Source: Sphingorhabdus sp. EL138 (GTDB lineage: Bacteria > Pseudomonadota > Alphaproteobacteria > Sphingomonadales > Sphingomonadaceae). From it: DNA of 64,000 bases. The notes under the pieces are model-generated. The model saw only the letters and a program-made list of their open reading frames with translations. It was not told the DNA's origin and did no database searches. Positions 9,038-64,000 of the stretch are shown here, piece after piece (within the stretch, counting starts at the first letter, position 1; each line of letters begins with the position of its first letter). The stretch is taken from NCBI RefSeq assembly GCF_945882965.1, contig NZ_CAMCWY010000015.1, positions 1-64,000 of the forward strand, in the 5' to 3' direction. Both the position numbers and the translations under genes were made by a program.

Positions 9038-10789
9038 ATGCGTAGCCTGTTCATCGCCGGGTGCTTATTTGCCCTGTCCGCGCCTGCTTATGCCGATGCC
9101 AATGATGATCTCACGGCCTTGGTCGATGACGTCTGGGCAAAGGCGCTCAAAGAAGCGCCTGTCTACGCAAGCGCTCTTGGCGTGAATGATTATGCCAATG
9201 AACTTGGCGATTATACGCTGGCGGCGCAGGACCGCAGGGCAGCCGATGCCGCACAGTTTCTGACCCGCCTGAATGCCATTCCGTCAAATGCGTTAAGTGC
9301 TGCGGCGAAGGTCGAGGCGGGCATATTACGACGGTCGTTGGTGTCTACAATCGAAGGCAATCAGTTCGGTCAGCGCGCCATCAACTTCACGACCTATTCA
9401 AGCTGGCACCAACAACTCGCCAGCATGTCGCGGAACTTGCCGTTCAAGACCAAGGCAGATTTTGAAAGCTACAATGCCCGGCTCACGCAATATGGCCGCG
9501 TCAATGACGAAAATATCGCGGTCGCCAATGTCGCGATCAAGGGCAGGTTTACGCAGCCTTGCGAAACGTTGACGGGTTTTGAAGGGACAGTGCGCGGCCT
9601 GATCGCATCCGACATCCGCCAGTCGCGTTTCTATGGTCCTTATGCGGCCAAGCGCCCCGAGAGCATTTCGGAAAGTGATTTCGCAGCGCTCGCAGAAGAA
9701 GCGGCGGCGACCATCCGCAACGTCATCCACCCTGCGCTGGCCAAGCAGTTGGCGTGGTACTCCGAAAGCTACAAGCCCGCTTGTGCCAAGGCCCCCGGCG
9801 TGTCCGCGCAGGCCAACGGCGCGGCTTATTAAGCCTTTCGCATCCGCGAAGAAACCACCACCAACCTGACGGCGGAGCAAATCCACCAAATTGGCCTGAG
9901 CGAAGTATCCAGCATTCGCGCCGAAATGGTCGATGTCGCGACAAAGGCAGGCTATCCCAGCCGCGAAGCCTTTATCGAACATCTGCGTACTGACCCGCAA
10001 TATTATGCCAAAACGCCGGAAGAGCTGATGGAAAAGGTCGCGCGGGTGACCAAAATCATTGACGGCAAAATGCCGAGCCTGTTCGGTCGCATGCCCCGAC
10101 TGCCATATGGCATAAAGGAAATTCCGGCTGAAACAGCCGAAGGCACGACAACGGCTTATTATAATCCAGGGTCGCCGGAAATCGGGATATCCGGCACCTA
10201 TTTTGTCAACACTTCGAAGCTGAACCAGAGCCCATTTTGGGAAGTTCCGGCGCTTTCGGTGCATGAGGCTGTGCCGGGGCACCATCATCAGATCGCGTTG
10301 CAGCAGGAGCTGCCCTTGTCCGATTTCCGAAAATATGGCGCGTCGTTCACGGCCTTTACCGAAGGATGGGGGCTGTATTCCGAACGGCTTGGTATCGAAA
10401 TGAGGCTTTATGACACGCCTGCCAAGGATATGGGGCGGCTATCCTACGAAATGTGGCGCGCATGCCGCTTGGTGGTCGACACCGGCATTCATGCCAAGGG
10501 TTGGAGCAAGCAGCAGGCCATCGCATTCATGACCGACAACAGCGCTTTGTCCGCCGCGAATATCGAGGCGGAGGTAAACCGGTATATCAGTTGGCCGGGT
10601 CAGGCGCTCGCTTACAAATTGGGCGAGCTGAAAATTCGCGAATTGCGCAATATGGCGACAAAGGAACTCGGGCCCAAATTTGATCTGGCCGCGTTCCATG
10701 ATGCGGTGCTTGGGCAAGGGTCTGTACCGCTGGACGTGCTTGAGCAGCAGATAAAGGACTGGGTCGCGGCGGAAAAAGCGAAGGGCTAG
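9038..10789 (+). pseudogene. DUF885 family hydrolase interrupted by an in-frame stop
   Basis: A 583-codon frame for an exported DUF885 protein (signal peptide MRSLFIAGCLFALSAPAYA). A TAA at 9830-9832 (codon 265) interrupts it; the frame then continues without any shift to 10789. The sequence around the stop, …NGAAY-stop-AFRIREETTTNLT…, matches the family pattern GAAYYA-x-R, so a Tyr codon seems to have become TAA by one base change. The downstream half keeps the HEAVPGHHHQ metal-binding motif and the ITEGW-like FTEGWGLYSE segment. Either the gene is recently inactivated, or a shorter protein starts at ATG 9926, or the base is a sequencing error. Confidence 0.85.
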
Positions 10790-10797
10790 CCTGTACC

Positions 10798-11382
10798 TTA
10801 TTTGGGTTCGGGAAGCGGTTCAGCATCGACGCTGGCCGCCTCTTTGGCTTCCAAATCGGCTTGCACTTTTGCTTCCCGCTCGGCCCGGCCTTTTTCAAAT
10901 TCGACGACGCGCGCTTCAACCTCAGCGGCTTCGGCATCAATGCCCGCCATGCGCTTGGCACGTTCAGCGGCGATCAAGCGGCCAAAGGTGATGCCGGGGT
11001 CTTGTGCTTTTTCGGCATAAGCCTTGTTAATCTCCGCCAAGCCGCAGCCGGTAAAGCCGCCAGCGCCAGAAGGTAAGCAGCTCATCGTGCCGCTTGCCGC
11101 GACATATTCGTAGGATTTAATCCGCACTGACATGGCTTCGTTGCGCCGGTCATTGGGGACGTCGCGCAAGCTGGTCGGAATACGATAGCGGTCTGCCTCT
11201 CCCATGCGGGCGCAGACGACAATTTCATCGCCAACGCTTTCGGGGCATTTGTCGTCGCCATAGATGATAAGCTGATTGATTTTTTCATCGCCAGGCTTTG
11301 CAGCCGGCGCATCATGCGCCGACGCCTGAACCGATAGCATCAAGGCGATGCCCGCGAGCGATATTCTGACCGTTGCTTTCAC
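10798..11382 (-). CDS. Exported protein of unknown function
   Basis: A 194-residue protein with a clear signal peptide (MKATVRISLAGIALMLSVQASA). The mature part has four cysteines, including a CPESVGDEIVVCAR stretch and a SGTMSCLPSGAGGFTGC stretch that could form disulfides. It ends in a highly charged Glu/Ala-rich helix (about residues 135-190), probably a coiled coil. The GDEIVVCAR segment recurs in uncharacterised sphingomonad periplasmic proteins, but I assign no function. It is the last gene of a leftward group after coq7, separated by about 63 bases, and is convergent with the DUF885 gene. Confidence 0.75.
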   Translation of the reverse strand: MKATVRISLAGIALMLSVQASAHDAPAAKPGDEKINQLIIYGDDKCPESVGDEIVVCARMGEADRYRIPTSLRDVPNDRRNEAMSVRIKSYEYVAASGTMSCLPSGAGGFTGCGLAEINKAYAEKAQDPGITFGRLIAAERAKRMAGIDAEAAEVEARVVEFEKGRAEREAKVQADLEAKEAASVDAEPLPEPK

Positions 11383-24184: not shown

Positions 24185-24328
24185 CTCCCCATCGACTTGC
24201 GATGGGGAGATGGCAGTCGAAGCGTTTAGCTTCGAATGACGGAGGTGCCTCTTAACGTTGAAAACTCCTCCGTCACGCTTCCACTGCGTTCCAGCGCGCC
24301 ACCTCCCCATCGCAAGTCGATGAGGAGG
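24185..24328. repeat. Dispersed repeat family B, copy 1
   Basis: Outer arms CTCCCCATCGACTTGCGATGGGGAG (24185-24209) and CCTCCCCATCGCAAGTCGATGAGGAGG, with inner arms CGAAGCGTTTAGCTTCG and GACGGAGG…CCTCCGTC. It lies between the divergent tldD and tgt genes. Other copies are near 28.9 and 54.4 kb. Confidence 0.8.
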
Positions 24329-28849: not shown

Positions 28850-28936
28850 TGCGTCATGCGAAGCTAATCGCTTCGGCTCGATGGGGGGGGAAGTTGGGCT
28901 ACTTATTCTCCCCATCGACTTGCGATGGGGAGGTGG
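28850..28936. repeat. Dispersed repeat family B, copy 2
   Basis: CGAAGCTAATCGCTTCGG and then CTCCCCATCGACTTGCGATGGGGAGGTGG (28908-28936). Both parts match copy 1. It lies downstream of bcp; the rest of the 28828-29271 gap contains no visible gene. Confidence 0.7.
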
Positions 28937-45994: not shown

Positions 45995-46789
45995 TTAAGG
46001 GGCGATTCCATTGCCCGGCAGCGATGCGTTAACAATGCCGCCGTCGCACGCAATCGTCTCTCCAACGATATAATCGCCAGCACGCGCGGCGAGGAAGATC
46101 GCAAGGCCAGCCATATCTTCAGGCGTTCCGATTCGTGGAAACGGGATATTCTTGCCCACGGCATCGGCATGGTCGCGCGCAGCCTTGTTCATGTCCGACT
46201 GAAATGCACCCGGCGCAATGCCCGACACAAGAATATTGTCCTTAACAAGCTCAGCCGCCAGACGGCGCGTCAAATGGATGACGGCGGCTTTCGATGCCTG
46301 ATAGCTATAGGTTTGCCACGGGTTGATCAGCAGGCCATCGATCGATGCGATGTTAATAACCTTGCCGGGGCGATCAAATGTCGCGGCGGCCTTCAACTGC
46401 GGGTGCATTGCCTGAGTCAGGAAGAACAGGGATTTGACGTTCAGGTCCATCACACGGTCCCAGCCAGATTCAGGGAACTGACCAAAATCCGCACCCCATG
46501 CTGCGCCAGCATTGTTCACGAGAATATCGACCTTTTCCTCACGCTCGGCAATTTGCGCGGCAAGCGACAGGCAACCGTCCACGGTCGACAAGTCGCAGGG
46601 CAGGCCAATAACCTGATTGCCGAATTCGGCGACGGTTTCCTCAATCTGGTGGACCTTACGCGCGCTGATATACACGCGTGCTGCACCAGCCTTGAGATAG
46701 CCTTCGACGATCATCTTGCCGATGCCGCGCGATCCGCCGGTGACCAACGCCACGCGGCCATTGAGGTTGAATAAGCTTTGAATATCCAT
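45995..46789 (-). CDS. SDR family oxidoreductase (RhlG-like)
   Basis: A 264-residue classical short-chain dehydrogenase. The cofactor motif TGGSRGIGKMI (residues 17-27) suggests NADP(H), with Ser-Tyr-Lys catalysis in NIASIDGL…YSYQASKAA. The sequence resembles 3-oxoacyl reductases of the RhlG branch. It is the last gene of the leftward group with two acyl-CoA dehydrogenases, so it may act on a 3-hydroxy/3-oxoacyl intermediate. The substrate is unknown. Confidence 0.88.
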   Translation of the reverse strand: MDIQSLFNLNGRVALVTGGSRGIGKMIVEGYLKAGAARVYISARKVHQIEETVAEFGNQVIGLPCDLSTVDGCLSLAAQIAEREEKVDILVNNAGAAWGADFGQFPESGWDRVMDLNVKSLFFLTQAMHPQLKAAATFDRPGKVINIASIDGLLINPWQTYSYQASKAAVIHLTRRLAAELVKDNILVSGIAPGAFQSDMNKAARDHADAVGKNIPFPRIGTPEDMAGLAIFLAARAGDYIVGETIACDGGIVNASLPGNGIAP

Positions 46790-46802
46790 TTGCGGTTTCC
46801 TT

Positions 46803-47939
46803 TTAATAACCGTTCATCGTCGCCACGCGGTCTGCGTGGTAATACGCGTCGCCGAAAAATTCGTTCAAGCTGCGGTCGCGCTTCATATACAGGCCGATGT
46901 CATATTCGTCAGTCATGCCGATACCGCCATGCATTTGAACGCCTTCCCGCACCGAAAGATTGCAGGCAAGCCCGGCTTTCGCCTTGGCCGCCGCGACATA
47001 AATTTCGGCCTTAGCATGGCCTTCGTCCATTAAGGATTGCGCCTTCAGCACAATCGAACGCGCGCCTTCCATTTCGCCATACAAATGCGCGGCGCGGTGT
47101 TGGAGCGCCTGAAATTCACCAATGACGCGGTCGAATTGCTTGCGCGTCTTAAGATATTCAAAAGTCATGTCCATCGCGCCTGTGCCAACGCCAACCATTT
47201 CGGCGGCTGCACCAACGCGGCCAGCGTCCAGCATCTTGGAAAGCACAGCCCAGCCGCCGTCAACGTCACCAATGACAGCGTCGGCATTCACCTGAACGCC
47301 CTCCAGTTTCACATGCGCGGCCATTGCGGAATCGACCAAACGTGCCGCCTCCATCGACAGACCCGCCGCATCCTTGTCGACGGCGAACAATGTCAGGCCG
47401 TCGGTCTCTCCCACCGCGCCTGCGGTCCGTGCGGCGACGATCAGCATGTCCGATGACGTGCCTTGCACAACAAATTGCTTTTGCCCGGTCAGCTTAAAGC
47501 CATTGCCGCTGCGCTGCGCAACGCACGCGATTTTCTCCGGCCGGTGCTTGACGCCTTCTTCAATCGCGATGCCGATCACGGTTTCGCCAGCCAAGATGCC
47601 GGGGAACCAGCGGTCGCGCATGGCCTTATCCGCCAGCTTCAACGCCTCAACCGCCGCGACCGATGTGGTCAAGAAAGGTGAGGGTGAGAGGTTGCGGCCA
47701 ATTTCTTCAAGGACAATACCCGCCTCAATCTGCCCCATGCCCATGCCGCCATCGGCCTCGGGAATCAGGATGCCGGTGAAGCCGATTTCGGCGAATTGCT
47801 TCCACAAGCCTTGGCTGAAACCGTCCTTGCACCCCATGTCGCGGAACTTGCGGAAATGGGTGACGGGCGCTTCGCGCGCCATGAAATCCCGCGCGGTGTC
47901 GCGCAGCATATTCTGGTCATCGTTTAAGGTCATTGCCAT
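46803..47939 (-). CDS. Acyl-CoA dehydrogenase (small-subunit type)
   Basis: A 378-residue FAD-dependent acyl-CoA dehydrogenase. The N-terminal helical domain, the mid domain (KLTGQKQFVVQGTSSDML) and the C-terminal domain with RKQFDRVIGEFQALQHRAAHLY and GVQMHGGIGMTDEYDIGLYMKR are all present. It resembles the shorter, divergent subunit of heteromeric dehydrogenases such as FadE29/ChsE-type or pimeloyl-CoA pairs. The neighbouring gene at 48074 is the likely partner. The SDR follows 13 bases downstream. Confidence 0.9.
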   Translation of the reverse strand: MAMTLNDDQNMLRDTARDFMAREAPVTHFRKFRDMGCKDGFSQGLWKQFAEIGFTGILIPEADGGMGMGQIEAGIVLEEIGRNLSPSPFLTTSVAAVEALKLADKAMRDRWFPGILAGETVIGIAIEEGVKHRPEKIACVAQRSGNGFKLTGQKQFVVQGTSSDMLIVAARTAGAVGETDGLTLFAVDKDAAGLSMEAARLVDSAMAAHVKLEGVQVNADAVIGDVDGGWAVLSKMLDAGRVGAAAEMVGVGTGAMDMTFEYLKTRKQFDRVIGEFQALQHRAAHLYGEMEGARSIVLKAQSLMDEGHAKAEIYVAAAKAKAGLACNLSVREGVQMHGGIGMTDEYDIGLYMKRDRSLNEFFGDAYYHADRVATMNGY

Positions 47940-47984
47940 GTTAAAGCCGCTCCAAATCTATCGCGTCATTCCGACGCTTTATCT

Positions 47985-48007
47985 CGTCATTCCCGCGCAG
48001 GCGGGAA
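47985..48007. repeat. Dispersed repeat family C, copy near 48.0 kb
   Basis: CGTCATTCCCGC-GCAG-GCGGGAA, lacking the outermost bases of the right arm, between the two acyl-CoA dehydrogenase genes. Confidence 0.7.
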
Positions 48008-48073
48008 CCCAACGCTGCGCCGTAAATATAGCTGTCAGGCGTGGGCCCCCACCTACGCGGAGGTGACGCAAAA

Positions 48074-49234
48074 TTAACCGCCCGGCATCTCAAGGATACG
48101 CTTCGACACGACGTTCAGCATCACTTCACTGGTGCCGCCCTCAATCGAGTTCGCCTTGGTCCGCAACCAATTGCGAGCCTTTGACCCGCCATTGGCCCGT
48201 TCGCTTTCCCACTCAAGCGCTTGAGAACCGCCAATCGACATGACCAATTCATTGCGTTTTTTGTTCAATTCGGTACCGACATATTTCATCAGGTTCGAAT
48301 AAGCTGGATGCGCCTTACCCGTTTTCCATTCGTCCATGAACCGTTCGCCATGGGCACGGAAGGTCAGGTTATCGACATCGAACAAGGCCATTTGCGCGCG
48401 CAGCACGGGCTCTTGCGACAAGGTCGCCTTCATCGCCGCGCCGATGGAGGTCACGCCGCCATCGCCGCCCATGCCGGAGATCATTTCGCGTTCATGGCCC
48501 AACAAATATTTCGCCACATCCCAGCCGCGATTGATCTCGCCAACAATCTGGTGCTTGGGCACAACAACATTGTCGAAAAATGTCTCGCAGAAAGGCGAAT
48601 TGCCAGAGATCAGCTTGATAGGCTTGGTCGAAACACCGGGTGTTTCCATGTCGAACAACAGGAAGCTGATGCCCTGATATTTGTTCGTCTTGTCGGTGCG
48701 GACCAAACAGAAAATCCAGTCGGCCTTGTCAGCATAAGACGTCCAGATCTTTTGGCCATTGACCACCCAATGGTCGCCCTTATCTTCGCCAAAGGTCTGC
48801 ATCGACACAAGGTCACTGCCTGAGCCCGGCTCCGAATAGCCCTGACACCAACGGATTTCGCCGCGGGCGATTTGGCCCATATAATGCACTTTTTGTTCTT
48901 CGGTGCCGAATTTCAACAAAGCTGGGCCAAGCATCCAGATGCCAAAGCTGTTAAGCGGCGAGCGGCAGCCAAGCTTTGCCATTTCCTGACGCAAGATTTT
49001 GGTTTCCTGCGGGCTAAGGCCTGCACCACCATAAGCTTTGGGCCAATCGGGCACGGTGTAGCCCTTGGCCACGCAACGCTCCAGCCAAAGCTTCTGCGCT
49101 TCTGATTGAAAAACAAAATTGCGTCCGCCCCAGCAGACGTCTTCGTCACCTTTGGCAGGTGTGCGCATTTCGGCGGGGCAGTTTTCCTCCAGCCAAGCGC
49201 GCGCCTCGGCGCGGAATGTATCAAGGTCGGACAT
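48074..49234 (-). CDS. Acyl-CoA dehydrogenase (large-subunit type)
   Basis: A 386-residue acyl-CoA dehydrogenase with the well-kept motifs RWCQGYSEPGSGSDLVSMQT, WVVNGQKIWTSYADKADWIFCLVRT and a C-terminal NSIEGGTSEVMLNVVSKRILEMP. This arrangement is typical of the FadE28/PimC-like large subunits that pair with a shorter subunit. The start at 49234 is supported by CAGGAGAG upstream; the frame is open 27 codons further but without family likeness. It is first in the leftward group with 46803 and the SDR. Confidence 0.9.
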   Translation of the reverse strand: MSDLDTFRAEARAWLEENCPAEMRTPAKGDEDVCWGGRNFVFQSEAQKLWLERCVAKGYTVPDWPKAYGGAGLSPQETKILRQEMAKLGCRSPLNSFGIWMLGPALLKFGTEEQKVHYMGQIARGEIRWCQGYSEPGSGSDLVSMQTFGEDKGDHWVVNGQKIWTSYADKADWIFCLVRTDKTNKYQGISFLLFDMETPGVSTKPIKLISGNSPFCETFFDNVVVPKHQIVGEINRGWDVAKYLLGHEREMISGMGGDGGVTSIGAAMKATLSQEPVLRAQMALFDVDNLTFRAHGERFMDEWKTGKAHPAYSNLMKYVGTELNKKRNELVMSIGGSQALEWESERANGGSKARNWLRTKANSIEGGTSEVMLNVVSKRILEMPGG

Positions 49235-49339
49235 GCGGCTCTCCTGTTTAATTACTTGATGAATTTTTGGGCGGTCATGCACCGAAACGCAAGCCTTTAT
49301 CGGTGAGTTATGCATGCCGTAACGTCATTTGCATCCCGA

Positions 49340-49367
49340 TTGACAGGCCGGGCAGCAGCCCTAGCAT
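49340..49367 (+). promoter_or_regulatory. Putative promoter of the rightward catabolic operon
   Basis: TTGACA (49340-49345), a 16-base spacer and TAGCAT (49362-49367), about 78 bases before the MFS start, in the 211-base region between the two divergent catabolic operons. Confidence 0.4.
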
Positions 49368-49445
49368 GGGCGCGGGATACAGGGGAGAAACATTGTGCGA
49401 TTCGCCGGAAAACACGCCTTTTCGCGTATTGTGATTTAAACCAAT

Positions 49446-50861
49446 ATGGCACCAGTCGTCGCACTCCCCCGATCGTTAAAGGTCATGCACGGCCTTGGTT
49501 CTGTCGCTTATGGCGTCAAGGATAATGGCTTTTCGGTCTTCCTGTTGATTTTTTATAATCAGGTGCTGGGGATTGACGCCAGCATCGTTGGCACCGTCAT
49601 CATGGCCGCGCTGATATTTGATGCCTTTGCCGACCCGATTATTGGCGAATTGTCCGACCGGACACAAAGCAAATGGGGCAGACGCCTGCCCTGGCTATAC
49701 GCCGCCGCGATTCCGCTTGGTATTATATGGCTATTGCTGTGGCACCCGCCCGAAATGGACCAGACGAGCACGATCATTTGGCTGTTCTGCACCGCCGTCC
49801 TCGCGCGCACATTCGTGGCGATGTGCGAGGTGCCGTCTATCGCCCTCGTGCCCGAACTGACCGGCGATTATGATGAACGTACGCGGTTGATGCGTTATCG
49901 TTTCTTATTTGGCTGGGCGGGCGGATTGCTGATGCTCATTTTCGCTTATGGCATTTTCTTCACAGGCGAAAAGGGCGTGAGCGACCCTGCCGGATATGAC
50001 GCTTATTCGGTGTGGGGGGCGCTGATGATGAGCGGCGCGGTGCTCATCTCCGCGCTTGGCCAGCATCGGCATGTGGCCAAGCAATCCCCGCCTGCTCCGC
50101 GCGGCGCTGGCATTGGCCATGCTTTTGCTGAAGTGAAAGCCACGCTCTCCAACCGCGCCTTTCTGTGGCTCGTCTCCGCGGCGTTATTCGGGCTGATCAA
50201 TCAAGGGATGACCTTTGCGCTCACCAATTACCAACTCGCCTTTTTGTGGCAGCTTCAACAGATGGAAATGCTCTATTATGCGCTGACCCTATTCTCAACG
50301 GTCATCATTGCCTTCATCATTGTTCCCCCCGTCTCGGCGCGATTGGGCAAGAAGCACGCTGCGATCCTGTTCGCGATCATCTCGCTGACCTTCACTACGG
50401 CATTATACGGCAGCTGGCTGCTCGACTTTGTGCCCGGTGCGCCGTCGGACCCTTCGATCCTGTTCATGTTTGCTTTAGTGACTTTAGCCAATAGCGCAGC
50501 CGTGAGTATGATGATGCTGACATCCTCGATGATGGCCGATGTGGTGGAGGCATCGCAGCAAGAAACCGGCAGGCGTTCGGAAGGTTTGTTCTTCGCTGGC
50601 TATTTCTTCATGCAGAAATGCGCCGTTGGCATCGGCACTTTTGCCGCCGGGATGATCCTAAGCTTTGCCAGTTTCCCGCAAGATGCCAAGCCGGGGGAAG
50701 TGGATGTTGTTGTCCTCGACGGGCTGGCATTATATTATATGTGCACTGTCTTGGTCGTCGGCATCATCGGCATTCTTATTCTGCGCCATTTCCCGATTTC
50801 GCGCGAAAGTCATAATGAGCGGTTGCGCGTCTTGAACACAGCAACAGAGTCTGCCATTTAA
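49446..50861 (+). CDS. MFS transporter, GPH (MelB-like) family
   Basis: A 471-residue carrier with twelve expected membrane helices. The segments VAYGVKDNGFSVFLLIFYNQVLG, FDAFADPIIGELSDRTQSKWGRRLPW and ETGRRSEGLFFAGYFFMQK are typical of the glycoside-pentoside-hexuronide:cation symporter group. The position at the head of an acyl-CoA catabolic operon suggests uptake of a growth substrate that is not a sugar, an inference from context. No clear ribosome binding site precedes the ATG; a later ATG at residue 14 is possible. Confidence 0.88.
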   Translation: MAPVVALPRSLKVMHGLGSVAYGVKDNGFSVFLLIFYNQVLGIDASIVGTVIMAALIFDAFADPIIGELSDRTQSKWGRRLPWLYAAAIPLGIIWLLLWHPPEMDQTSTIIWLFCTAVLARTFVAMCEVPSIALVPELTGDYDERTRLMRYRFLFGWAGGLLMLIFAYGIFFTGEKGVSDPAGYDAYSVWGALMMSGAVLISALGQHRHVAKQSPPAPRGAGIGHAFAEVKATLSNRAFLWLVSAALFGLINQGMTFALTNYQLAFLWQLQQMEMLYYALTLFSTVIIAFIIVPPVSARLGKKHAAILFAIISLTFTTALYGSWLLDFVPGAPSDPSILFMFALVTLANSAAVSMMMLTSSMMADVVEASQQETGRRSEGLFFAGYFFMQKCAVGIGTFAAGMILSFASFPQDAKPGEVDVVVLDGLALYYMCTVLVVGIIGILILRHFPISRESHNERLRVLNTATESAI

Positions 50862-50894
50862 CCGATCAATTAAATTTGAAAAGAGGAATGAGTC

Positions 50895-52178
50895 ATGGAT
50901 TTCGATCTCAACGACAAGCAAACTTATTGGCGGGACCGTATCCGCGACCATAATGAACGCTTCTTGCGTCCACGCGTCGCCGATTATTATGCCGAGCAGG
51001 CGGTGGGCGACCGTTGGAAAGTGCTTCAGGTCGTTGAAGAGGAAAAGGCGCGGGCCAAGGCCGCTGGTCTTTGGAACCTGTTCATGCCGCCAACGTCGGG
51101 CCGCGTGCATGTCGACGACAGCATCCATTTCGAAGGCCCTGGCCTCACCAACATGGAATATGCCCTGTGCGCCGAGGAAATGGGCCGCATCGGTTTTGCA
51201 TCCGAAGTCTATAACTGTTCGGCACCAGACACCGGCAATATGGAAGTGTTCCTGCGTTACGGCACCGCCGCACAAAAAGAAAAGTGGATGCTTCCGCTGA
51301 TGAACGGCGAAATCCGTTCGGCATTCTTGATGACTGAGCCAGCGGTTGCCTCGTCAGATGCGACCAACATCGAAACCTCGATCCGCCGCGAAGGCGACGA
51401 ATATGTCCTGAACGGCGTTAAGTGGTGGTCATCAGGTGCAGGCGACCCGCGTTGCAAGATCGCGATTGTCATGGGCAAGACCGATTTTGAAGCCAAGCGC
51501 CATGCACAGCAATCGATGGTGTTGATGGAACTCGATGCCCCCGGCGTCAACATTCTGCGCCATCTGCCTGTCTTTGGTTATGACGACGCGCCGCATGGTC
51601 ATATGGAAATCGAATTGAAAGATGTCCGTATTCCGGCATCGAACATGCTGCTGGGCGAAGGTCGCGGGTTCGAGATCGCGCAAGGCCGCCTTGGACCAGG
51701 CCGCATCCATCATTGCATGCGCACCATTGGTACGGCGGAAGAAGCGCTGGAGAAAATGTGCAAGCGCCTGCAATCGCGCGTTGCCTTTGGCAAGACCGTT
51801 GCCGAGCATAGCGTATGGGAAGAACGCATTGCACGTGCCCGTATCGACATTGAAATGACTCGCCTGCTGTGCCTGAAGGCAGCGGATATGATGGACAAGG
51901 TCGGTAACAAGGCGGCTGCGGCGGAAATCGCGATGATTAAGGTGCAGGCCCCAAATATGGCGTTGAGCATCATCGATAATGCGATTCAAGCACATGGCGG
52001 CGGCGGTGTGTCCGATGATTTCGGTCTCGCATCCGCTTGGGCGCATCAGCGCACCTTACGTCTGGCCGATGGTCCCGACGAAGTGCACGCACGTGCCATT
52101 GCTCGTATGGAATTGGGCAAGCATGGCGGACGTGGCAAAGACGGCCTATCCAGCGGCGACATGGGGGCAACACGGTGA
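50895..52178 (+). CDS. Acyl-CoA dehydrogenase, ACAD10/11-like
   Basis: A 427-residue acyl-CoA dehydrogenase. The segments [48 protein letters not shown] and [16 protein letters not shown] place it with the dehydrogenase domain of ACAD10/ACAD11 and the bacterial LvaC type. In those systems an APH-like kinase phosphorylates a 4-hydroxyacyl-CoA, and this type of enzyme removes the phosphate during isomerisation. Such a kinase lies two genes downstream (53260). A GAGGAATG stretch serves as ribosome binding site. The stop overlaps the next start. Confidence 0.9.
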
Positions 52179-53263
52179 AGGCTGCCGTCCTGATCGAAGC
52201 GGGCAAACCGCTTCAGATTGAGCAGATCAACATTGCCAATCCCGGGCCGCATGAGGTGCTTATCCGCACCGCGGCCTGTGGGCTGTGCCATAGCGACCTG
52301 CACTTTATCGAAGGCACTTATCCGCACCCCCTGCCCGCGATCCCCGGGCATGAAGCGGCGGGCATTGTTGAGGCCGTGGGCAGCGAAGTGCGCACCGTGA
52401 AGGTAGGCGACGCGGTTGTCACCTGCCTCAGCGCATTTTGTGGCCATTGCGAATATTGTGTCACTGGGCGCATGTCTTTATGCCTTGGCGGCGACACACG
52501 CCGTAAAGCAGGTGAGGCTCCGCGCCTCACACGGCCCGACGGCAGCATTGTCAACCAGATGCTGAACCTGTCCGCTTATGCCGAAATGATGCTGGTGCAC
52601 GAACATGCGTGCGTTGCGATTAACCCCGAAATGCCGCTCGATAAGGCGTCAGTCATTGGCTGCGCGGTGACCACGGGTGCAGGCACCATTTTCAACGCAT
52701 GCAAAGTGACGCCCGGCGAAACCGTGGCAGTTATCGGCTGTGGCGGCGTTGGCCTTGCCACGATTAACGCCGCGAAAATTGCGGGCGCGGGCCGAATCAT
52801 TGCCGCTGACCCAATGCCCGAAAAGCGTGCACTGGCGATGAAGCTGGGTGCGACGGATGTCATCGATCCCATGGATGCTGATGCAGCCAAACAAATTCAG
52901 GAATTGACCAAGGGCGGCGTCGATCATGCGATTGAGGCTGTCGGTCGTCCTGCCTCGGGCGAGCTTGCCGTCAAATCGCTCAAGCGCGGCGGGACAGCAA
53001 CGATCCTGGGCATGATGCCGTTGCAGCATTCGGTTGGCCTGTCCGCGATGGACCTGCTTTCGGGCAAGAAACTGCAAGGCGCGATCATGGGTGGCAACCG
53101 TTTCCCTGTTGATATTCCGCGTCTGGTGGATTTCTATATGCGTGGCCTTTTGGACCTCGACAGCATCGTTTCGGAGACAATCCCGCTGGAACGCATCAAC
53201 GAAGGTTTTGAACAGATGAAGCGCGGTGATGCTGCCCGTTCAGTCATCGTTTTTGACCAATGA
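52175..53263 (+). CDS. Zinc-dependent alcohol dehydrogenase
   Basis: A 362-residue medium-chain dehydrogenase. Catalytic zinc ligands are in CGLCHSDLH and GHEAAG, and the structural zinc loop lies in [12 protein letters not shown]…C. The Rossmann motif is [20 protein letters not shown]. It resembles the class III/NDMA-dependent branch. The start is GTG 52175, overlapping the previous stop as GTGA. It probably oxidises a hydroxyl intermediate or substrate alcohol of the pathway. Confidence 0.9.
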
Positions 53264-54342
53264 GCGCAGCGCCAACCCCGATTGATGCGCAGACGGCCTT
53301 TACCGGAACCGTTGCCCCAACGGGCGCGGATATATTGGACGAAGCTAAGCTGGCCGAATGGATGACCGCCAATGTCGCTGGTTTTGAAGGACCAGTGCAG
53401 GCGCTGAAATTTGCCGGCGGGCAGTCAAACCCGACCTACAGGTTGAATGCGAAAAGCGGCTCCTATGTGCTTCGCCGCAAGCCCTTGGGTGTATTGTTGC
53501 CCAGCGCGCACGCTGTGGACCGCGAATATACAGTCATCGCCGGGCTTCATCCCACGGGCTTTCCAGTCGCCAAGCCCTATGGTCTGTGCACCGACGATAG
53601 CGTCATCGGCAGTTGGTTCTACATCATGGACATGGTCGAAGGGCGCACCATCTGGGACGGCGCCATGCCGGGGTCAAACACTGCCGAACGCCGCGTCACC
53701 TATGAGGCGATGATCGACACCCTGGCAGCATTACACAATGTGGATGTCGAAGGCGCTGGCCTGTCCGATTTCGGTAAGCCCGGAAATTATTTCGGGCGGC
53801 AGGTGGAACGCTGGACGAAGCAATATCGCTTGGCAGAAACCGAAGTCATGCCCGAAATGGAGCGGCTCATCGAATGGCTGCCCAAGACGTTGCCCGAGCA
53901 AACACGCACCAGCGTCGTTCATGGCGACTATCGCATTGATAACATGATTTTCGATGCAAAAGAGGCGAAGGTCGTCGCGGTGTTGGATTGGGAATTGTCG
54001 ACCTTGGGCGATCCGCTGGCAGATTTCACCTATGTCGCAATGGCATGGGTGACACAGAATGAAGGCCGGTCGGGCGTCATGGATCTTGACCGCGCAGCGC
54101 TGGGCATTCCCGAACTCGACGCGATGGTCGAACGCTACTGCGCGGCAACGAACCGCGACGGCGTACCGGACATGAATTGGTATCTCGCCTATAATTTCTT
54201 CCGGCTCGCCGGGATTGTTCAAGGTATCAAAAAGCGGGTCATCGACGGCACCGCAAGTTCGTCACATGCGCAAGCCATGGCCGAACGCGTGTTTCCGTTG
54301 GCCGATTCCGCTTGGAAGTTTGCGGAAAAGGCTGGGGCGTAG
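53260..54342 (+). CDS. APH-like phosphotransferase (ACAD10/11 kinase-domain type)
   Basis: A 360-residue kinase of the aminoglycoside phosphotransferase fold. Typical parts are FAGGQSNPTYRL (nucleotide loop), SYVLRRKPLGVLLPSAHAVDRE, the catalytic VVHGDYRIDNMIF (HGD-x-R-x-x-N) and the metal-binding VLDWELSTLGDPLADF. This is the N-terminal half of human ACAD10/11 as a separate protein, and is LvaA-like. It overlaps the alcohol dehydrogenase stop by four bases. It is most likely a hydroxyacyl-CoA kinase rather than antibiotic resistance. Confidence 0.9.
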   Translation: MSAAPTPIDAQTAFTGTVAPTGADILDEAKLAEWMTANVAGFEGPVQALKFAGGQSNPTYRLNAKSGSYVLRRKPLGVLLPSAHAVDREYTVIAGLHPTGFPVAKPYGLCTDDSVIGSWFYIMDMVEGRTIWDGAMPGSNTAERRVTYEAMIDTLAALHNVDVEGAGLSDFGKPGNYFGRQVERWTKQYRLAETEVMPEMERLIEWLPKTLPEQTRTSVVHGDYRIDNMIFDAKEAKVVAVLDWELSTLGDPLADFTYVAMAWVTQNEGRSGVMDLDRAALGIPELDAMVERYCAATNRDGVPDMNWYLAYNFFRLAGIVQGIKKRVIDGTASSSHAQAMAERVFPLADSAWKFAEKAGA

Positions 54343-54353
54343 AATAATCAATC

Positions 54354-54482
54354 CTCCCCATCGACTTGCGATGGGGAGGGGGACAAGCCGAAGGATGGTG
54401 GAGGGGAATGAAGCGTCGCTGTCCCCTCGGTCATCCAAAGCTGCAGCTTTGGCTGCCACCTCCCATCGCAAGTCGATGGAGA
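54354..54482. repeat. Dispersed repeat family B, copy 3
   Basis: Left arm CTCCCCATCGACTTGCGATGGGGAGG, right arm CACCTCCCATCGCAAGTCGATGGAG, with an inner hairpin CAAAGCTGCAGCTTTGG. It lies inside the rightward catabolic operon, between the kinase and SDR genes. Confidence 0.8.
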
Positions 54483-54504
54483 GAGAAGAGTGAGAGGAAT
54501 GCAA

Positions 54505-55266
54505 ATGTCTTTATTCGATATGACCGGCAAGGTCGCCATCATCACAGGGTCGTCGCGCGGCATCGGCCAGGCAATCGCCGAAGAAATGGCGGAACATGGC
54601 GCAAAGGTTGTGATCTCCAGCCGCAATATCGAAGATTGCGAAGCAGTCGCCGCTGGCATCAATGCAAAGCATGTAGGCGCGGCGATTGCGGTGGCCTCAA
54701 GTCTCTCGTCTAAGGAAAGCCTGCAAAATCTGGTTGATGCAGCGCATAAGGCATTTGGCAAGGTCGATGTCTTGGTCTGCAATGCGGCGTCGAACCCGCA
54801 TTATGGCCCGATGGCGACCATCACCGACGAACAACTGCGCAAGACGCTCGATCACAATATCGTCTCACAACATTGGCTGATCCAGATGGTTGTTCCCGAA
54901 ATGATCGAACGCAAATCGGGCTCCATCGTGATCGTGTCGTCCATTGGCGGCCTGCGCGGTTCACCGATCTTGGGCGCTTATGCGATTACCAAGGCGGCGG
55001 ATATTCAGATGACCAAAAACCTCGCACGCGAATATGGCCCGCATAATGTGCGCATCAATTCCATCGCGCCGGGGCTTGTAAAAACCGATTTTGCTAAGGC
55101 GCTGTGGGAGAATCCCGAAAACCTGAAAGCCTCCACCGCTGGCGCGGCATTGGGCCGTATTGGCGAACCGCGTGAGATTGCAGGCGCTGCGGTATATCTG
55201 GCGTCCGATGCATCCACCTTTATGACCGGACAGACAATTGTTGTTGATGGAGGGGTAGTCGTATGA
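54505..55266 (+). CDS. SDR family oxidoreductase
   Basis: A 253-residue classical short-chain dehydrogenase: cofactor loop [14 protein letters not shown], the NAASNPHYG segment in place of the common NNAG, catalytic S-Y-K in [11 protein letters not shown]…GAYAITKAA, and the C-terminal [12 protein letters not shown]. Gene starts at 54490 and 54499 are possible; 54505 gives the family N-terminus with GAGAGG upstream. Probably acts on a hydroxyacyl-CoA or alcohol intermediate; the substrate is unknown. The next start overlaps by four bases. Confidence 0.88.
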
Positions 55267-56075
55267 CCGTTCAACAGGCTCAGGGTGCACTGGCAGGCAA
55301 AGTCGCCATTATCACTGGCGCAGGTTCCGGCATTGGCCGTGCATCCGCCATCCGTTTTGCGGCCGAAGGCGCGAAGGTCGTTTTGGGCGACATGGCGGCA
55401 TCGGTGCATGACACCGCCGCGATGATCGGTGACGCGGCGACCGCCGTCCAAATGGACGCAGGCGACGAAAGTGATGTCGCGGCTTTGGTTGCCAAGGCCA
55501 TCGAACTGCACGGCCATCTGGACGTTGCATTTGCCAACGCTGGCATCTCCGGCGGCATGGAAGGCATCTTCGACAACACTGTCGAGAATTTCACCAGCGT
55601 CCTGCGCGTCAACCTCATCGGCCCGTGGCTGATGGTGAAGCATGCGGGCAAGGTCATGGCCGATGCAGGTAGTGGCGGTTCAATCATCCTGACCGCAAGC
55701 GTCGCGGGCATTCGTTCGGGTGCAGGCGGGCCGCCTTATTCGGCGTCAAAGGCTGGCGTCATCAATCTGGCGATGGTTTCGGCGCAGCAATTGTCGGGCA
55801 CTAATGTCCGCTGCAACGCGATTTGCCCCGGCCTTACCGAAACCGGTATGACCAAGCCGACATTTGATTATGCAAAGGAAAAGGGCGTGACGGACAAAAT
55901 CGGTCGCCTCAACCCGTTGCGCCGTGGCGCGCAGCCGGAGGAACTCGCCAATGTCGCCTTGTTCCTCGCCAGCGATCAGGCCTCTTATGTCAATGGCCAA
56001 GCCATCGCTGTTGACGGCGGGCTATCGAGCTCACACCCCGTGACCCGCCAATTGACTGGACAAACCGCAGTATGA
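55263..56075 (+). CDS. SDR family oxidoreductase
   Basis: A 270-residue short-chain dehydrogenase with cofactor loop [12 protein letters not shown] and an acidic residue after strand 2 (VVLGDMAA), pointing to NAD(H). [31 protein letters not shown] and [12 protein letters not shown] complete the pattern. The paired SDR genes overlap as ATGA, so they are translated together. NAD preference suggests the oxidative direction. The substrate is not known. Confidence 0.88.
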
Positions 56076-57262
56076 GCGCCGAAAATTTAGGTTTCGTTCC
56101 CGAGCGCCTCGCGCGGATTCCCGCCTTCCTTCAGGCCAATTATCTCGACAATGGCAAATTGCCGTTTGCGTCGGTGTTGGTTGGCCGTGGCGATGATATC
56201 GCGTTGCAATGGAGCTCTGGCGTCGCCGATGATGCTATTTTCCGGATCGCATCCATGACCAAGCCAATCACCTCGGTCGCGTTCATGCAGTTGGTGGAGC
56301 AGGGCAAGGTCGCGCTGACGGATCCGGTCGCCAAATATGTCCCCGAATTTGCCAAATTGGGCGTGTTTGTGGGCGGCGGCGGCAATGTTCCCTTTATCAC
56401 GCGCGCACCGTCCACGCAGATGCGGGTGGTTGACTTGCTGCGGCATACAGCCGGATTCACCTATAGCTTTCAGGAACAAGGCAATGTCGACGCGGCCTAT
56501 CGCAAGACCGATGTTGAAAGCTGGAGCAAAAATACCTCGCAAAGCGTGATTGATACACTTGCGCAAATCCCGCTGGAATTCGACCCCGGAACGCAGTGGA
56601 ATTATTCCGTAGCCACTGACATACTCGGCATATTGGTTGAACGGATCAGCGGGCTGTCATTGCCCGAATATTTCCAGACGCATATTTTCCAGCCCTTGGG
56701 CATGAACGATACATTCTTCCAAGTGCCTGCCGACAAGGCTGCCCGTATCCCCGAAGGCTTCAGCTTTGACCCCGAAGCGAAAATGAAGCTGATCGACAAG
56801 GCCGGGGCCGACAGCATGTGGGCCAAAGGATGGTCATTCAATTCCGGCGGCGGCGGTCTGGCGTCGAGCGTTGCGGACTATTATCGGTTCTGCCGGATGC
56901 TGCTGAACGGCGGCGCGCTGAACGGCGCACAAATCCTCAGCCCAAAAACGATAGAATTGATGACCGCCAATCATATTCCCGGCGGCCAAGACCTGACGCA
57001 AATGTCGAAATCTTTGTTCAGTGAGGCCGAAATGGCCGGCATTGGCTTTGGCCTTGGCTTTGCCACGACCATCGACAGCGCTGCGACACTTGCGCCTTGC
57101 TCCAACGGCGATTTTTATTGGGGCGGCATGTATTCCACCGCCTTTTTCGTGGATCCGGTTGAGGACATCATCATGATGTTCATGACGCAATTGCTGCCGT
57201 CCACAACCTACCCCGTGCGCCGCGAGATCAAGACGATGATTTATTCCGCGCTGGCGGCTTAG
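56072..57262 (+). CDS. Serine hydrolase, beta-lactamase/EstB-like
   Basis: A 396-residue protein of the class C beta-lactamase/esterase fold. The nucleophile motif is SMTK (S61, K64), and the second motif is the Tyr in WNYSVATD (YSV, about residue 175). No signal peptide is visible, so a cytoplasmic esterase is more likely than a secreted beta-lactamase. It is the last gene of the rightward catabolic operon (ATGA overlap with the SDR) and could open an ester or lactone substrate, which is an inference. Confidence 0.87.
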
Positions 57263-63881: not shown

Positions 63882-64000
63882 TCAGGCTTTGGCTTTCAGG
63901 CTCTCCGCGACCTTAACGCCATGCCGCTCAAGCGCTTCAACGATTTTGACTGCGCCTTCCAAATCGCCCCAGAACATGGGGCCGCCGCGATAGATCGGCC
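63882..64000 (-). CDS. 3' end of a leftward gene, perhaps 3-hydroxyacyl-CoA dehydrogenase
   Basis: Only the last 38 residues are in the window, beginning [17 protein letters not shown] and ending in KAKA. An RGGPMFW segment preceded by Gly-Phe-Pro-like residues is common in the C-terminal domain of bifunctional enoyl-CoA hydratase/3-hydroxyacyl-CoA dehydrogenases (FadB/FadJ), which would suit fatty-acid degradation. The tail is too short for a firm call. Confidence 0.45.

Follow-up and report, generated by a model that had tools for sequence, protein, structure and literature searches.

Mammalian ACAD10 and ACAD11 unite a kinase half and an acyl-CoA dehydrogenase (ACAD) half, and the reaction carried out by these halves, phosphorylation of 4-hydroxyacyl-coenzyme A (CoA) esters followed by elimination of the phosphate, was assigned to the mammalian enzymes only in 2024–2025 (PMC11342911, PMC12440821). 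In the available parts of these reports, the 4-phospho group is bound by an upstream Arg and an HCMR motif that conventional ACADs lack, and the ACAD step runs without an electron acceptor (PMC12440821); the ACAD10 kinase favours the R isomer approximately fourfold, and the bacterial LvaA and LvaC orthologs Q63VL0 and Q63VL1, which are encoded by separate genes and are active with 4-hydroxyhexanoyl-CoA, substitute for the ACAD10 halves in vitro (PMC11342911). The lva clusters of Pseudomonas putida and P. citronellolis, as described in the parts of two further reports, likewise contain a kinase, an ACAD and a short-chain dehydrogenase (SDR) (PMC6692424, PMC9399607). Here we analyse a stretch of 64,000 nucleotides from Sphingorhabdus sp. 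EL138 (contig NZ_CAMCWY010000015.1, positions 1 to 64,000, forward strand; ‘the window’), in which a rightward operon of seven genes at 49446–57262 includes separate genes for such a kinase and such an ACAD. Taken with its flanking genes, the locus probably serves as a peripheral unit of beta-oxidation that handles 4-hydroxyacyl-CoA esters.

The genes of the operon are as follows.

49446..50861, + strand: MFS_2 (GPH-type) carrier (Pfam PF13347, E = 1.5e-108).
50895..52178, + strand: ACAD11/LvaC-like acyl-CoA dehydrogenase, proposed to eliminate phosphate from 4-phosphoacyl-CoA (8v3u, E = 1.7e-130; LADGPDEVH).
52175..53263, + strand: zinc alcohol dehydrogenase (Zn-ADH; Pfam ADH_N and ADH_zinc_N; resembling class I/III ADH in the PDB search), its start taken as GTG 52175.
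53260..54342, + strand: APH-fold kinase, proposed 4-hydroxyacyl-CoA kinase (3dxp, E = 1.1e-111; mouse ACAD11 kinase domain, E = 1.6e-73).
54499..55266, + strand: SDR1 (Pfam adh_short_C2; DHRS4 is the best PDB match), starting at ATG 54499, with 54505 or GTG 54490 also possible.
55263..56075, + strand: SDR2 (Pfam adh_short_C2).
56072..57262, + strand: beta-lactamase-fold esterase (Pfam Beta-lactamase; 7pp3 Esterase, E = 3.8e-109; SMTK at residue 61).

A preliminary description had read this region as one rightward operon of these families, joined mostly by 4-bp overlaps. Pfam assignments (MFS_2, Acyl-CoA_dh, ADH_zinc, APH, two adh_short and Beta-lactamase) bear out the families, and such overlaps occur at four of the six junctions (ACAD/ADH, ADH/APH, SDR1/SDR2 and SDR2/esterase); the carrier and ACAD genes are spaced by 33 bp, and the ~150 bp between kinase and SDR1 is occupied by a palindromic repeat. 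The last gene encodes a beta-lactamase-fold (family VIII) esterase, having both the SxxK motif (SMTK) and the match to the solved esterase 7pp3.

Against mouse ACAD11 in entry 8v3v, the kinase matches one half (E = 1.6e-73) and the ACAD the other (E = 8.2e-130), with E = 1.7e-130 for the ACAD and 8v3u. The two solved entries are unlike each other at the two catalytic positions, the kinase Asp being Ala in 8v3u and the ACAD Asp being Asn in 8v3v; alignment to them places an Asp at both positions in the window proteins. The kinase further carries the catalytic Asn and the Arg residues for the CoA substrate, and the ACAD carries the HCMR motif and its upstream Arg. Shared with ACAD10 and ACAD11, as far as the available parts of PMC12440821 and PMC11342911 describe these, are thus both catalytic halves, both Asp residues, the HCMR motif with the upstream Arg, the Arg beside the kinase Glu and the Arg of the GRQV stretch; the published R86 was placed by its description (beside the alpha-C Glu), its numbering differing by two in our count. 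Among aligned relatives, the kinase H, G, D and N and two Arg residues are invariant in 119/119, the ACAD R/R/H/C/M/R positions in 90/92 (the other two being gapped) and the ACAD Asp in 92/92. As both proteins match the ACAD11 halves and retain the active-site residues, including HCMR, the assignment of the pair as a putative 4-hydroxyacyl-CoA kinase and phosphate-eliminating ACAD is well supported. The preliminary description had stressed the splitting of ACAD10/11 functions over two genes. The split itself stands, with two separate proteins here and a Zn-ADH gene between theirs, but it is a form already known and assayed in bacteria (PMC11342911, in the part available), with which our locus shares its separate genes by published description and, by prediction, its reactions.

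It is very improbable that the kinase instead modifies an antibiotic, a sugar or a sterol alcohol amid a loose set of catabolic neighbours. The APH fold and weak matches to NCBIfam aminoglycoside kinases would allow this, and so would a phosphotransferase-family kinase of another bacterium, whose substrates are 25-hydroxysteroids (PMC8449060, in the part available); yet the match to the ACAD11 kinase domain, the conserved residues and the occurrence of ACAD11 alongside the kinase in 36/38 genomes (below) all point elsewhere. Aminoglycoside resistance in particular is disfavoured, the NCBIfam scores being far under the cut-off (34 versus 205 bits) and the match being of the ACAD11 type.

Co-occurrence was followed in 150 genomes of the phylum, including that of the window, with thresholds of E ≤ 1e-45 for the kinase, ≤ 1e-75 for the ACAD, ≤ 1e-58 for SDR1 and ≤ 1e-52 for SDR2; up to 17 SDR candidates were scored per genome, so that some SDRs may have been missed. 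Kinase and ACAD11 were each found in 37/150 genomes, and 36 of the 38 genomes having either have both (Fisher p = 2e-32, shared ancestry ignored), the two genes lying within 5 kb of each other in 20 of these 36. SDR1 was found in 16/150 genomes, 15 of them with the kinase (p = 8e-10), and 12 of the 16 matches are at least 52% identical; all seven genomes with SDR2 also have the kinase (p = 4e-5), within 5 kb in six. One genome of another class (locus L200) holds ACAD11 (58%), SDR1 (53%), the kinase (43%) and SDR2 (50%) in one cluster that lacks an ADH or esterase match. Most SDR identities in our loci fall under 40% or exceed 60%, with only one SDR1 and five SDR2 matches at 45–60%, those of L200 among them; orthology of the L200 proteins to SDR1 and SDR2 is likely, not certain.

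The window genome contains further APH genes. At 9111–11320 of locus L203 (contig C3), a divergent second gene (414 amino acids) adjoins one for a DUF7064 protein, an AMP-binding ligase and a TonB-dependent receptor are encoded nearby, and the stretch examined shows no ACAD11-type gene; a third APH gene region (L204) is also present.

Gene neighbourhoods were compared over 120 loci, comprising the best 80 of 587 candidates and 40 stretches chosen from 50 genomes with a match. After removal of two duplicates, 86/118 had more than 6 kb on either side (‘full loci’), 75 of these with a kinase at least 55% identical; the loci are mutually related, and counts of neighbours are not independent events. 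Within 8 kb of the kinase, ACAD11 is present in 70/75 full loci, ADH in 64, MFS_2 and SDR2 in 47 each, SDR1 in 40 and the esterase, among the less conserved members, in 30. The arrangement is similarly constant: where the kinase is at least 55% identical, ACAD11 lies upstream of it on the same strand in 88/89 loci, and in 80/80 loci having both, ADH separates ACAD11 from the kinase. Control neighbours, which from a reading of their translations we take to be PurL, DMT, GNAT and IspG, recur in only 6, 13, 12 and 12 of the 75 full loci, respectively, all of them loci whose kinase is at least 90% identical.

The same comparison brings in four genes outside the operon.

45995..46789, − strand: SDR_up, a short-chain dehydrogenase adjoining the ACAD pair (Pfam adh_short).
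46803..47939, − strand: ACADb, resembling an acyl-CoA dehydrogenase subunit (best PDB match 6wy8 chain A, Tcur3481, E = 7.4e-41).
48074..49315, − strand: ACADa, resembling an acyl-CoA dehydrogenase subunit (best PDB match 6wy9 chain A, Tcur3483, E = 4.2e-41), with an alternative start at ATG 49234.
63882–65888 of the contig, − strand: FadB-like enoyl-CoA hydratase/3-hydroxyacyl-CoA dehydrogenase gene, only the 3′ 119 bases of which (63882..64000) lie inside the window.

With the same 8-kb limit around the kinase, ACADa and ACADb are each found in 67/75 full loci and SDR_up in 51; all 77 loci with ACADa (kinase at least 55% identical) encode it on the opposite strand, and in Sphingomonas-type loci the pair lies downstream instead of upstream. 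The FadB-like family is seen in 23/120 loci, adjoins the esterase in relatives and lies within 9 kb of the kinase in 15/75 full loci. Its seeming absence from the unit of the nearest relatives (0/13 within 9 kb of the kinase) was overturned when the gene was located here 6.6 kb downstream of the esterase, past genes unseen in more distant loci. Its product, matched at contig positions 63885–65876, shares 80% identity with its FadB-like counterpart in locus L072 and scores under the NCBIfam FadB/FadJ cut-offs. The conserved unit therefore exceeds seven genes, adding the opposite-strand ACAD pair with SDR_up (45995–49315) and the FadB-like gene; of the previously drawn extent, 49446–57262, the genes stand, and the boundaries prove too narrow. 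That the genes exceed chance is borne out by their median dN/dS, which is 0.026–0.067 for the ten genes at 45995–57262 (14–16 near relatives each) and 0.042 for the control labelled ispG. No description of the larger cluster was recognised in the open-licence literature searched: the core chemistry is known, and the surrounding conserved unit is an apparently undescribed variant.

Further neighbours were seen here and in relatives. Beside the FadB-like gene, beyond the window at 66014–66895 of the contig, is a gene like the NAD_binding_2 (3-hydroxyisobutyrate-dehydrogenase-like) gene of Sphingopyxis FadB loci, a likeness judged by eye. In two order-level relatives (L033, 9079–11454; L035, 8922–11392), a kinase 51–52% identical to ours lies beside a purD-like gene (GARS domains), not ACAD11; this purD-like family was found in nine loci. 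On plasmid pTK4 of Sphingobium sp. TKS, typed as conjugative (L181, 9001–10239), an ACAD11-like gene (70%) lies between linX and gorA, near linA and linC, with no kinase adjoining it, and matches of ~70% occur on other sphingomonad plasmids.

ACADa and ACADb are adjacent and resemble the two different subunits of a single solved complex (6wy9 and 6wy8, respectively), as expected of a two-subunit dehydrogenase. The Tcur3483/Tcur3481 complex is, we presume, a steroid side-chain enzyme. As the pair matches both of its subunits, the substrate could possibly be a ring-derived or branched 4-hydroxyacyl-CoA (from a steroid, a terpenoid or similar), with ACADa/ACADb serving as a dehydrogenase for bulky CoA esters and the kinase and ACAD11 steps unchanged. 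The retention of the pair in most full loci and the match of ACADb to IpdE2 (140 bits versus a cut-off of 450) are consistent with this; the best NCBIfam matches of the pair, however, are pimeloyl-CoA dehydrogenase subunits, also far under cut-off, and we regard a bulky substrate as rather unlikely. The unit is read most simply as acting on straight-chain 4-hydroxy acids or lactones.

A related operon is on a Novosphingobium capsulatum plasmid (U0041_RS21235 to RS21275), where ACAD11 (71%), APH (60%), SDR1 (64%) and SDR2 (60%) occur in the same order ahead of genes for FadB, a CoA ligase and ACADs; unlike here, the ligase is inside the operon. A TetR/AcrR regulator adjoins it, the 19 kb examined contain no ADH, MFS_2 or esterase match, and its ACADs match ACADa/ACADb at just 33–36%. 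As the core there runs on into FadB, ligase and ACAD genes, this operon supports a CoA-ester pathway.

That the locus is the levulinate pathway proper appears improbable. Its kinase, ACAD and SDR are of the same classes as LvaA, LvaC and LvaD, the two SDRs being compared with LvaD by its description in papers only. Set against the lva clusters, in so far as the available parts of PMC6692424 and PMC9399607 describe them, the ligase and the ActP-type permease are not in the cluster here, which instead has a second SDR, the Zn-ADH, the esterase, the MFS_2 carrier and the ACAD pair. Pseudomonas-like genomes (L187–L191) showed no recognisable lva operon, and Lva proteins were compared through the papers only. 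The DUF6285 domain, which we take to be the family of LvaB, has no match in the window genome, in line with the absence of an LvaB-like partner noted in the preliminary description, and is found in 23/61 searched genomes. In nine of ten loci (L151–L160), a DUF6285 match lies inside an open frame of 452–562 residues, compared with the 91 positions of the domain, so that a fusion is possible. The lack of an LvaB-like domain and of a ligase on the contig, together with the different carrier, disfavours a levulinate operon. On its own, absence of LvaB is real but not distinctive, because the P. citronellolis lva region as analysed by its authors is also without LvaB (PMC6692424, in the part available).

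The preliminary description had also noted the lack of a CoA ligase. This holds for the operon and not for the genome, in which AMP-binding matches form 20 stretches elsewhere, some being parts of one gene (hence fewer genes than stretches). An ortholog of the N. capsulatum operon ligase is unsupported. The open reading frames near the operon include no recognisable regulator gene, though no search was aimed at regulator families (for example, the LvaR sigma-54 type).

On the assembled evidence, the cluster most likely lets the bacterium use 4-hydroxy acids, for example lactone-derived ones. The carrier would import the substrate, and the esterase would open an ester or gamma-lactone; a ligase encoded elsewhere, of the kind present in the genome, would then activate the acid with CoA. 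SDR1 and SDR2 may, possibly together with the Zn-ADH, bring C4 to a form acceptable to the kinase, either by reduction of a 4-oxo group, as by LvaD, or by inversion from S to R via the ketone. The kinase is predicted, from orthology and conserved residues, to phosphorylate the 4-hydroxyl, and on the same grounds the ACAD11-like enzyme, with its flavin cofactor FAD, to eliminate the phosphate to yield 2-enoyl-CoA; these two steps are the firm part of the proposed pathway. Hydration and oxidation of the 2-enoyl-CoA would fall to the FadB-like protein, and ACADa/ACADb might open further rounds. A lactone or hydroxy-ester substrate, as suggested previously, would fit the esterase and the SDRs; the esterase is one of the less conserved genes (30/75).

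Several observations weigh against assignment of the locus to 4-hydroxyacyl-CoA oxidation as a whole. No CoA ligase is present in the operon, none of the 20 AMP-binding stretches is on this contig, and the ligase of the N. capsulatum operon has a best match of just 34% identity in the window genome. In the 11 full loci with a kinase below 55% identity, ACAD11 is near in two and other members in none. Across the sampled genomes, kinase and ACAD11 are more than 5 kb apart in 16/36 with both, just 5 of the 16 genomes with SDR1 have it at most 8 kb from the kinase, and 4/16 SDR1 matches are just 40–47% identical; the SDR p values, like that for the core pair, take no account of shared ancestry.

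Three elements lie between the genes.

49314–49327, + strand: conserved block ATGCCGTAACGTCA, between the two gene groups and upstream of the carrier.
49340–49367, + strand: sigma-70-like TTGACA (49340) and TAGCAT (49362), spacing 16.
54357..54480, no strand assigned: palindromic dispersed repeat, between kinase and SDR1.

The first two are each identical in 15/15 aligned rows, window included. The repeat has five matches in the window versus 0.05 expected, and its half-site has 19 in the genome versus none for the reversed control; six further contigs carry exact matches, and another two carry matches with one mismatch. Copies lie at 54357–54480, 24188–24324 and 28911–28929; where both ends were found they span 124–137 bp, with ends near CCCATCGACTTGCGATGGG. 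Of 30 relatives with SDR1, 27 have at most 54 bp between the kinase gene and the first start codon possible for SDR1.

The kinase is present in all 37 searched genomes of the genus, several of which are ~2 Mb, and this points to a routine environmental substrate. It is conceivable, if rather doubtful, that the unit is a dedicated sphingomonad-wide route for a common, unrecognised 4-hydroxy acid, lactone-derived or bulky and ring-derived, in which SDR1 and SDR2 would invert the C4 alcohol via the ketone and thereby make both isomers usable by the stereoselective kinase, and ACADa/ACADb would be specialised for the same substrate. The cluster offers a direct handle on which 4-hydroxy acids bacteria meet in nature.

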